Positions 11,985 to 39,066 of a stretch of DNA of 48,100 nucleotides are shown here, piece by piece. Position 1 is the first letter of the stretch. Every line of letters starts with the position of its first letter. The position numbers were made by a program, and so were the translations under genes. The notes below the pieces were generated by a model. That model worked only from the letters and a program-made list of their open reading frames with translations, had not been told where the DNA came from and did not search any database. Location of the stretch: NCBI GenBank assembly GCA_028716165.1, contig JAQUQI010000012.1, positions 1 to 48,100 on the forward strand. Direction: 5' to 3'. The DNA is from Candidatus Omnitrophota bacterium. Its GTDB lineage: Bacteria > Omnitrophota > Gorgyraeia > JABMRG01.

Positions 11985-12833
11985 CTACTGTTGAGAAGAT
12001 TGGACTCTTGTACCGCAGTCCTGGCAAAAATTAGTGCCAGGGCTAAGCTCCCTGCCGCATTTGGGGCATATCAGGCCCTCCAATTGCAGTCCGCAATGGG
12101 CGCAGAATTTCGCGCCGTTATCAATGTCATTCCCGCATTTGGGGCATACCGATAAACCGCTGCTCTCTTCCTGCGTCGGCGGGCACGACGGAATTTTTTC
12201 AGATATAAAGCCTGTCATATCCGCGATAGCCATATTCGTAGCTTTGCCAAGAGGCGTTTGTTTAAAACCCGCCAGATTTCCGCCTATACCGCTTTGCTGA
12301 TACCCTATGGTCAATCCTGTGGCAGGCACTTTTCTCTCAAACCTTTTTGACCCGCAGATCTCGCCTGTCGTTGAATCAAATATCCTGATAGTTCCGGCTA
12401 TATGGGCCTCGGAAGAGGTCCCTCCAAGATTAAAACCTTTAATATTAAGCCCCAGGCCCCCGCCCGATTCCTTATAGCTGAATTCGGTTATTGTCCCGCG
12501 CACTATATATTCCGCTCCCTTAAGCTCGGCTGTTTTAGCGCCTGTCTTTTTTGATACCCTTCCTTTTGTCACAAGATCCTGCTCCGTGGTGATATCGCTT
12601 AGATTGAGCCTTTCAACAACATTGAATTTATCGGTATTGACAAGCGCGTCTATAAGCATTTCGCCCATGCCTGAACCGATATCCCATTTGGCATCATGCC
12701 AAAAACCGCTTGAGGCCTTGACCTCAAAACCATAAACAGTGACCGTCGGTTTGTATTCGCCGGCGCGGCATAAATTTGCGGAAAATAAAAAAACACAAAG
12801 TGTAAAAACCGTCAATATACTTTTCATTGCCAT
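11985..12833 (-). CDS. Secreted CsgG-like protein with two C-terminal zinc ribbons
   Basis: From the chosen ATG at 12833 the protein has 282 residues. The start MAMKSILTVFTLCVFLFSA looks like a signal peptide with cleavage after CRA. The middle part resembles the CsgG/HfaB fold: TVTVYGFEVKA, MGEMLIDALVNTDKFNVVER, GAEYIVRGTITEF, AHIAGTIRIFDSTTGEI. The C-terminus has two four-cysteine ribbons: CPKCG...FCAHCG and CPKCG...FCQDCG. Zinc ribbons are usually cytoplasmic, so their presence behind a signal peptide is odd. A longer frame to 12920 exists, but the start at 12833 has AGGAG at ideal spacing and begins with the signal peptide. It follows lepB by 10 bases. Function unknown; assembly or outer-membrane lipoprotein-type roles are guesses. 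Confidence 0.8.
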   Translation of the reverse strand: MAMKSILTVFTLCVFLFSANLCRAGEYKPTVTVYGFEVKASSGFWHDAKWDIGSGMGEMLIDALVNTDKFNVVERLNLSDITTEQDLVTKGRVSKKTGAKTAELKGAEYIVRGTITEFSYKESGGGLGLNIKGFNLGGTSSEAHIAGTIRIFDSTTGEICGSKRFERKVPATGLTIGYQQSGIGGNLAGFKQTPLGKATNMAIADMTGFISEKIPSCPPTQEESSGLSVCPKCGNDIDNGAKFCAHCGLQLEGLICPKCGRELSPGTNFCQDCGTRVQSSQQ

Positions 12834-12843
12834 ACTCCTTTCC

Positions 12844-13413
12844 TTATTCCAGCAATCGTATCCTGTTAAGCGGCCAATACGTGACAAACGCCTTGCCGAC
12901 CATATATTTGGCGGGCACAAACCCCCAATACCTGCTGTCCCTTGATGAGGCGCTGTTGTCTCCTAAGACAAAATATGAATCCCGGGGGACCTTTATTGAT
13001 ATTGAATTCTCCCCGTATGGAGTGCCGGGCTTATTATAATAATATATCTGTTTGATCTTTTGCGGGGACTCTACGAGAACATCATCTATATATATATCGC
13101 CGTCAACGATACGGACAGTTTCACCCTGGACAGCGATAAGCCTTTTGATGAAATCCTTCTTTTTATCTTCCGGGTATTTGAAGACCACGATGTCTCCGCG
13201 CTTAGGGTTTGTAAACTTATATATAAATTTATTCACAAGTATCCTGTCTCCTTCAATAAGCGTAGGCCTCATGGAACCGGTCGGTATCTTAAAAGCCTGC
13301 ACCACGAATGTCCTGATGATAAGAGCAAGGATGACCGCCGTAACTACGACTTCCACATTCTCCCTGTTAAAAACCGAACTCCAGACATGCTTTATGTAAT
13401 GTTTGATATTCAA
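12844..13413 (-). CDS. lepB: Signal peptidase I
   Basis: Membrane-bound serine-lysine protease that removes signal peptides from exported proteins. The 189 residues show an N-terminal membrane segment (about 21-40), the catalytic serine in PTGSMRPTL (S47), the general-base lysine in FIKRLIAVQGE (K90) and the C-terminal GDNSASSRDSRYWG motif. Translation starts at TTG (13413), preceded by GGGAGGG at seven bases, a strong site compensating for the weak start codon. It lies 22 bases after lepA, the classic lepA-lepB arrangement. Confidence 0.96.
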   Translation of the reverse strand: MNIKHYIKHVWSSVFNRENVEVVVTAVILALIIRTFVVQAFKIPTGSMRPTLIEGDRILVNKFIYKFTNPKRGDIVVFKYPEDKKKDFIKRLIAVQGETVRIVDGDIYIDDVLVESPQKIKQIYYYNKPGTPYGENSISIKVPRDSYFVLGDNSASSRDSRYWGFVPAKYMVGKAFVTYWPLNRIRLLE

Positions 13414-37246: not shown

Positions 37247-38491
37247 ATGAAAGCGGAAATAATAAGCATAGGCACGGAGTTACTGCTTGGCCAGTCTATA
37301 GATACCAATTCGGCGTATATTTCAAGGGAATTGGCCCGCATAGGCATAGACGTATATTACCACACTACGGTAGGTGATAATAATACCAGGCTCTATGAAA
37401 CAATAAAAACCGCGATGAAAAGATCAGACATAGTCATAACTACAGGCGGATTGGGGCCTACCATTGATGACGTAACTCTTGACGCGGCGGCCAGAATATC
37501 GGACAGGAGTCTTATTCTCAACGCAAATATACTTTGCCTTATAAAAAAACATTTCTCCGCAAGGCATATAAAAATGCCGAAAATCAATATCCGCCAGGCC
37601 TATATACCCAAAGGCGCTGTATGGCTTAAAAATAATTCCGGCACCGCGCCGGGATTGATAATCAAAAAATATAAAAAAACCCTGATCTGTCTTCCCGGGC
37701 CTGATTCTGAAATGATACCCATGTTAGAAAAAAAAGTCCTGATGTTTTTAAAAAAAATCTCGCCTTTTCGCGGCGTTATATTAACAAGGACAATAAAAAC
37801 AACAGGCTTAAGCGAGTCTCAAGTGCACCAAAAAGTCAAAGGTTTTTTAAAACTATCAGGCCATACCACTATGGGTATATACGTCAAACCCGGACAGGTT
37901 GAGCTCAAGATAACCTCAAAGGCGGAAAACGCCATTATTGCAAATAAGCATATTGACGCGATAGAACAAAAACTGCGTAAAAGGCTGGGTAATTTGATAT
38001 GCGGCATTGATCATCAAGGCCTTGAAGAAACAGTATTACGCCTGCTCAAATCAAGGACTATAGCGGTAGCCGAATCGTGCACCGGCGGACTCATAAGCGA
38101 CAGGATAACCAATGTCCCCGGAGCGTCCAAAAACCTTATCCTCTCTGTTGTCGCTTATTCAAACGAATCAAAGATTAATTTGCTTAGAGTCTCCGCTGTT
38201 ATATTAAACCGCTACGGGGCCGTAAGCGCCCAAACAGCCAGGGCTATGGCAAAAAACATAAGAATCATTTCAGGCGCGGACATAGGCCTTTCCGTAACCG
38301 GTATAGCCGGGCCGGGCGGCGGAAAAGGCGCCAAGCCGGTAGGCCTTGTGTATACGGCCATTTCCGATAAAGAAAAAACGTATTCAAAAAGGCACTTTTT
38401 CATCGGCTCAAGAAAACACATCAAATTCCGTTACAGCCAGGCGGCTCTTGACATGGCGAGGACTCATATCATTCAATGCGCGGATTCATAG
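37247..38491 (+). CDS. cinA: CinA: nucleotide pyrophosphatase plus NMN deamidase
   Basis: A 414-residue two-domain protein. The N-terminal MoCF-like half (MKAEIISIGTELLLGQ, TVGDNNTRL, VITTGGLGPTIDDVT) belongs to the COG1058 ADP-ribose/CoA pyrophosphatase group. The C-terminal CinA (PncC-type) half, from about 263, has AVAESCTGGLISDRIT, VVAYSNESKINLL, YGAVSAQTARAMA and VTGIAGPGGGKGAKPVGLV; it deamidates nicotinamide mononucleotide for NAD recycling. The start is fixed by the conserved N-terminus, yet no Shine-Dalgarno precedes it. It is one of only two plus-strand genes and runs divergently from recA. In many bacteria cinA is upstream of thpR and recA; here cinA-thpR points away from recA. Confidence 0.96.
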   Translation: MKAEIISIGTELLLGQSIDTNSAYISRELARIGIDVYYHTTVGDNNTRLYETIKTAMKRSDIVITTGGLGPTIDDVTLDAAARISDRSLILNANILCLIKKHFSARHIKMPKINIRQAYIPKGAVWLKNNSGTAPGLIIKKYKKTLICLPGPDSEMIPMLEKKVLMFLKKISPFRGVILTRTIKTTGLSESQVHQKVKGFLKLSGHTTMGIYVKPGQVELKITSKAENAIIANKHIDAIEQKLRKRLGNLICGIDHQGLEETVLRLLKSRTIAVAESCTGGLISDRITNVPGASKNLILSVVAYSNESKINLLRVSAVILNRYGAVSAQTARAMAKNIRIISGADIGLSVTGIAGPGGGKGAKPVGLVYTAISDKEKTYSKRHFFIGSRKHIKFRYSQAALDMARTHIIQCADS

Positions 38492-38547
38492 CGATATGAT
38501 TAACGGAAAAAATAAAAGCGTCATTATCGTCCCTGCAGTGCAGGCTT
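38476..38547 (+). other. Original 5' end of thpR, with in-frame UGA at codon 8
   Basis: From ATG 38476, overlapping the cinA end by 16 bases, the frame reads MRGFIAI, a UGA at 38497-38499, then LTEKIKASLSSLQCRL, and continues without shift into the thpR frame at 38548. MRxFIAI[D]L is the first beta strand of ThpR proteins, so this is the true N-terminus. The UGA sits where relatives have an acidic residue. Only this one stop interrupts the gene. It could be a nonsense mutation, an assembly error, or a recoding site. Confidence 0.75.
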
Positions 38548-38561
38548 ATGCGCTATGACGC
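38518..38561 (+). promoter_or_regulatory. Two-part stem-loop downstream of the thpR UGA
   Basis: Outer arms GCGTCAT (38518-38524) and ATGACGC (38555-38561) pair perfectly over 7 bases. An apical stem CCTGC/GCAGG (38532-38536, 38540-38544) closes an AGU loop. It begins 18 bases after the in-frame UGA and encloses the internal ATG 38548. The layout recalls bacterial recoding elements, but no selenocysteine-specific motif was verified. Confidence 0.45.
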
Positions 38562-39066
38562 AGACATAAAATGGGTCAAGCCCTGCCATATGCATATCAG
38601 CATAAAATTTTTAGGCAATATAAACGATTATACCGTCAACCGCCTAAAAAACGCTGTTTTAAAAATTACAGAATCCTGCCCTGTTATTAAAATTAACATA
38701 TCGGGCGTTGGAATTCTTTCCGATTCACTTCAACCGCGCGTAATCCGGGCTGGCGTAGATAATCCCCCAAAAGAATTGGCGAACCTATACCGGCACATAA
38801 GCTGTGCCTGTGAAAATGAAGGCCTTCCCGTAGACAAGAGGCCTTTTTTACCTCATATAAGCCTTGGCAGGATAAGAAAGCACGGGATAAGCCCGGAGTT
38901 GGCCAAAGCAATAGAGAATGAATCGGGTTTTACAGCGGAAGAAAAAATAACCGTAAAAAAAATAGGCCTTTTTTCAAGCCTGCTTACGCAGGCCGGGCCC
39001 CAATACTTACTGCTGGAAGAATTCCGGCTTGCTGGAGCCGGTAAACCAGCAAGACCAATAATATAG
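38548..39066 (+). CDS. thpR: RNA 2',3'-cyclic phosphodiesterase (2'-5' RNA ligase family), from internal start
   Basis: A member of the 2H phosphoesterase family. The first catalytic motif is HISIKFLG (H-x-S, about residues 17-24) and the second HISLGRIRK (about 103-111). From ATG 38548 the product has 172 residues and lacks the first beta strand, which is encoded upstream before the in-frame UGA (38497-38499). Both histidine motifs and the rest of the fold are intact, with no further lesion. Whether the short form is made by re-initiation (weak AGG site) or the full form by UGA read-through is unknown. The 3' end overlaps convergent pgpA by 83 bases. Confidence 0.85.
   Translation: MRYDADIKWVKPCHMHISIKFLGNINDYTVNRLKNAVLKITESCPVIKINISGVGILSDSLQPRVIRAGVDNPPKELANLYRHISCACENEGLPVDKRPFLPHISLGRIRKHGISPELAKAIENESGFTAEEKITVKKIGLFSSLLTQAGPQYLLLEEFRLAGAGKPARPII

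Follow-up and report, generated by a model that had tools for sequence, protein, structure and literature searches.

We asked whether the TGA at codon 8 of thpR in this Candidatus Omnitrophota genome is decoded, bypassed, erroneous, or the mark of a gene being lost. The window, meaning the whole stretch of DNA that was analysed, is 48,100 nucleotides long, and all coordinates refer to it. The thpR frame (RNA 2',3'-cyclic phosphodiesterase; 38476–39066, + strand) was identified by TIGR02258 and by alignment with relatives. It reads ATG at 38476, CGC GGA TTC ATA GCG ATA, and then TGA at 38497–38499, encoding MRGFIAI followed by a stop. Past this stop, 188 sense codons extend to the TAG at 39064–39066, and they include both HxT/S motifs of a functional ThpR (motif definition from PMC5283653): HIS at 38593–38601 in HISIKF (His at 38593), and HIS at 38854–38862 in HISLGR (His at 38854). 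The sequence-only reading had described MRGFIAI-UGA followed by a 2H phosphoesterase with both histidine motifs, and the sequence bears this out. The part of thpR after 38548 by itself scored 111.4 bits against the NCBIfam model TIGR02258 (cut-off 65.7). A functional ThpR has an uninterrupted frame that includes the N-terminal strand beta-1; here the TGA at 38497 interrupts it. A disrupting lesion is expected of a pseudogene, and the frame contains one, a number that would be expected if the pseudogene were young.

The gene order in the window is recA (−), cinA (+), thpR, and then pgpA, pgsA and rimO (−). Gene cinA (37247–38491, + strand) is intact (446.7 bits against NCBIfam PRK00549, cut-off 379) and overlaps the start of thpR by 16 nt. 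In two relatives of the same family, G001 and G002, the cinA–thpR pair likewise lies opposite pgpA and pgsA-like genes. The cinA overlap had been offered as proof that ATG 38476 is the ancestral start, but it is not universal: the overlap is 4 nt in G002, and G001 has a gap instead. The start is nonetheless very probably ancestral, because the N-terminus MR-F-I-A-I of a read-through ThpR can be aligned with its relatives from residue 1; solved 2H proteins are also matched from residue 1. A frameshift past the TGA was rejected by eye. That is, no single slip rescues ThpR, because the +1 frame meets TAA immediately (GAT TAA) and the −1 frame, from ATG 38496, is just 20 codons long. Searches of the genome with the PF13563 and TIGR02258 profiles found no other intact copy of thpR. 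At its 3' end thpR overlaps pgpA tail to tail by 83 nt (38984–39066), and the same overlap in G002 is 38 nt. Elsewhere in the window, the gene at 11988–12920 (−) adjoins signal peptidase and lepA genes; its product has a CsgG domain and, at the C-terminus, a double zinc ribbon.

A comparison of codon 8 among relatives showed that this position is less constrained than had been assumed. The residues at 78 scored loci were Glu (42), Lys (12), Asp (8), Pro (4), Gln (4), Ala (2), Asn (2), Gly (2), Arg (1) and Ile (1). Pro is found in two same-family relatives (CCG, CCA) and Ala in two same-order ones. The statement that UGA stands where ThpR proteins have Asp or Glu therefore holds as a majority rule, with exceptions: Pro in family members, Ala in order members, and Lys and others elsewhere. 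That UGA lies more than one substitution away from any Asp or Glu codon is a weak argument here, since the nearest relatives have Pro or Ala and the thpR branch is very long. Reaching UGA in two steps along so long a branch, or in a single step from a Gly or Arg codon, would be unremarkable. None of 80 loci in genome_contigs, and none of 29 other Omnitrophota thpR loci, had a stop at codon 8; a script flag at locus L147 was a pattern artefact (its N-terminus is intact), and two loci without the search pattern have an open frame. UGA, Cys and Trp were all absent from codon 8 in the relatives examined, so the homologous position lacks the Cys or UGA expected of a selenoprotein.

Divergence of thpR was compared with that of its neighbor cinA. 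The present ThpR is 34–38% identical to those of same-order relatives, which are 40–67% identical among themselves (46–67% among G001, G004, G005, G018 and G019), and 28–33% identical to the more distant relatives compared. The cinA gene on the same contig is 58–60% identical to those of other order members, which are 61–66% identical among themselves. The thpR branch is approximately three times the cinA branch (1.51–1.58 vs 0.50), measuring 1.58 on the cinA topology and 1.51 in a free thpR tree, which was also used because node support within the cinA tree was low. The ratio of thpR to cinA branches is ~0.8 to 1.2 in G001, G004, G005, G012, G018 and G019; among the genomes compared, only same-family G002 is similarly raised (thpR 0.97 vs cinA 0.30). 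The G002 gene (L009:1501–2061) is intact but accelerated, and this second such genome in the same family hints that thpR may be relaxed in more than one of its members. A cinA search of genome_contigs found no congeners, and a search there with the ThpR alignment found relatives at ≤36% identity only. Assemblies labelled Candidatus Omnitrophota are numerous among the top thpR matches in named records, which places the genome in the Omnitrophota as far as its nearest relatives can tell.

Substitutions in the protein pointed the same way. Mean identity was lowest for the present ThpR among 30 Omnitrophota ThpR proteins, and of 41 conserved residues it has changed 10 (including F81L, P82S and W91R), second only to G056. 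In the alignment, CGG (Arg) at 38746–38748 (+ strand) replaces a Trp conserved in nearly all relatives (PRVIW). Judged by the RV-W motif rather than by alignment, the lost residue probably corresponds to Trp82 of LigT, which is well placed for stacking against an RNA base (PMC5283653). Together these comparisons show relaxed constraint on thpR relative to cinA, in the sense of acceleration rather than of demonstrated neutrality. Acceleration alone does not prove decay, because the ThpR proteins of G056 and G002 evolve fast and are intact. Had the thpR frame been neutral, ~5 stops would be expected in it at 0.2 substitutions per site. The one stop seen indicates that most of the divergence accrued while the frame was kept under some selection; thus, the UGA must be a recent change, a harmless one, or an error.

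Three observations show that the loss of thpR is tolerated. There was no thpR match in 42 of 238 genomes of the class (18%), all of them at least 90% complete. In same-family G003 (93% complete) neither cinA nor thpR was detectable, which would fit joint loss of the two genes or their location in a gap. Knockout of LigT in E. coli had no obvious effect on growth (PMC5283653).

The reading that we favor, with some reserve, is a real and recent nonsense mutation that hit codon 8 when thpR was already under relaxed constraint, making the gene a nascent pseudogene in a lineage that can dispense with it. It draws on the observed stop, on the missing decoding machinery described below, on the accelerated divergence, and on the absence of thpR from other genomes of the class. 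ThpR would have become dispensable in the lineage and constraint on its gene would have relaxed before the stop arose; the nonsense mutation would then have appeared recently. That the lesion must be recent follows from the frame having been kept through most of the divergence. Translation from ATG 38476 would end after seven residues via RF2, so that little or no ThpR would be produced, and we infer that no functional product is made. Counting against gene loss are the 188 open codons and the retention of both HxS motifs and the HISLGR arginine. Among the possibilities listed in the sequence-only reading, a young pseudogene is thus the best supported and UGA recoding is contradicted; an assembly error and then a restart are the residual rivals, in that order, and the case is an ordinary one.

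In the case of a base-call or assembly error, the true sequence at 38497–38499 would be a sense codon, and the organism's ThpR would be intact and fast-evolving. We regard this as possible but rather unlikely. In a draft assembly a lone stop and an error look alike, and that the TGA base is real is therefore our inference. An error would fit the openness of the rest of the frame with its catalytic motifs, and the absence of an N-terminal stop from all other Omnitrophota thpR loci read; moreover, the codons for Gly and Arg, residues seen at codon 8 in a few loci, include some that lie a single base away from TGA. On the other hand, ten other proteins of the window, picked mainly for unusual starts or overlaps, show Pfam domains without visible interruption, and the signs of relaxed constraint in thpR are independent of the stop.

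If the UGA were harmless, translation would have to restart at ATG 38548–38550 (+ strand), the first in-frame ATG downstream. Such re-initiation, perhaps coupled to termination at 38497, would yield an N-truncated but useful ThpR and would keep the downstream frame under selection; we consider it unlikely. It accords with the intact frame after 38548, a part sufficient to pass the TIGR02258 cut-off, and with the bulk of the divergence having occurred while the frame was open. An out-of-frame ORF of 20 codons (38496–38558), whose ATG overlaps the TGA (ATGA) and whose own TGA at 38556–38558 lies near ATG 38548, could couple termination to re-initiation, but it is probably there by chance. The Shine-Dalgarno sequence at ATG 38548 is weak, with a duplex energy of −2.1 kcal/mol vs −6.1 kcal/mol at ATG 38476 (E. 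coli-like anti-Shine-Dalgarno); among the 35 other starts in the window, just 2 have a weaker one. Both this ATG and its Shine-Dalgarno-like CAGG are paired inside a hairpin. Truncation would also cost the protein strand beta-1. This strand, the site of the phosphate-binding Arg6 in E. coli LigT, where the nearby Phe8 touches ribose (PMC5283653), is kept in frame across the loci surveyed. A regulated scheme, in which the stop at 38499 is coupled through the mini-ORF at ATG 38496 to a restart at 38548, giving a ThpR without beta-1 and with altered substrate choice, strikes us as extremely improbable.

Read-through of UGA at a low level is general in bacteria, and the genome has an ordinary tRNA-Trp with anticodon CCA that could in this way give traces of full-length ThpR. 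We consider this very unlikely to matter here. RF2 is present (496.8 bits), the base after the UGA is U, which makes a strong terminator context, and no relative has Trp at codon 8.

Dedicated decoding of the UGA is unsupported, within a genome 95.7% complete, a figure that bounds every absence of sel genes and tRNAs. No UCA anticodon occurs among all 47 tRNAs, and a UGA-decoding or suppressor tRNA was rejected on that ground. A changed genetic code was rejected because RF2 is present and TGA terminates 17 of 43 ORFs in the window; that is, the genome shows neither the loss of RF2, nor the UCA tRNA, nor the disuse of TGA as a stop that would mark a reassigned code. The selenocysteine genes had been named as a check, and the search for them went against recoding. 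There was no match to selA in this genome and nine relatives (a control genome scored over the cut-off), and matches to selB across 39 genomes were all below the cut-off, as expected from general elongation factors. The best tRNA-Sec score in this genome was 42.3 (gathering cut-off 47), and four above-cut-off matches examined in relatives were identified by ARAGORN as tRNA-Ser or tRNA-Leu. The genome thus lacks a detectable set of the SelA, SelB and tRNA-Sec that a selenoprotein needs. A literature search on selenocysteine in Omnitrophota turned up nothing useful.

We also examined the hairpin that had been proposed, as 7+5 base pairs in two parts, to begin 18 bases after the UGA. Folding of 38497–38565 confirmed that it exists, at 38518–38561 (+ strand), with 7 outer and 5 inner pairs and 3 more between them, and spanning ATG 38548. 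Its stability is ordinary. The fold had a z-score of −1.70, 12 of 200 shuffles were at least equally stable, and of 1100 coding 69-mers taken from the window, 25% folded at least as well; the hairpin is therefore no evidence of recoding and was rejected as a recoding signal. The SECIS element that should stand right after a selenocysteine UGA was not found either, as the Rfam SECIS families gave no match at E-values up to 10. Selenocysteine at codon 8 directed by this hairpin has the position of the hairpin as the sole point in its favor, and we give it virtually no credence, since selA, a selB above the cut-off and tRNA-Sec were not found (with ~4% of the genome missing), no SECIS matched, the hairpin is not unusual, and relatives lack Cys at codon 8.

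The closest known system is ThpR/LigT of the 2H phosphoesterase superfamily (TIGR02258, Pfam PF02834; E. coli LigT). The present gene resembles it in both HxS/T motifs, the HISLGR arginine and family scores over the cut-off, and resembles other ThpR loci in its conserved neighbors, with cinA upstream and pgpA and pgsA facing; it differs in the stop at codon 8 and in the loss of the conserved Phe-Pro and Trp. In contrast, its likeness to bacterial selenoproteins such as FdhF with its SECIS ends at an in-frame UGA followed by a hairpin: the Sec machinery, a SECIS match and Cys homologues are lacking, and the hairpin is no stronger than typical coding sequence. The gene shares with nascent bacterial pseudogenes a single premature stop in a frame that is otherwise almost whole, a rate of evolution above that of the adjoining gene, and absence from part of the clade, although it has no second lesion and is known here from one draft genome.

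These results remove one candidate for UGA recoding, and they illustrate why a UGA followed by a hairpin is by itself weak evidence for it. If the stop is real, this locus would be one more case of the conserved gene thpR being lost in Omnitrophota.
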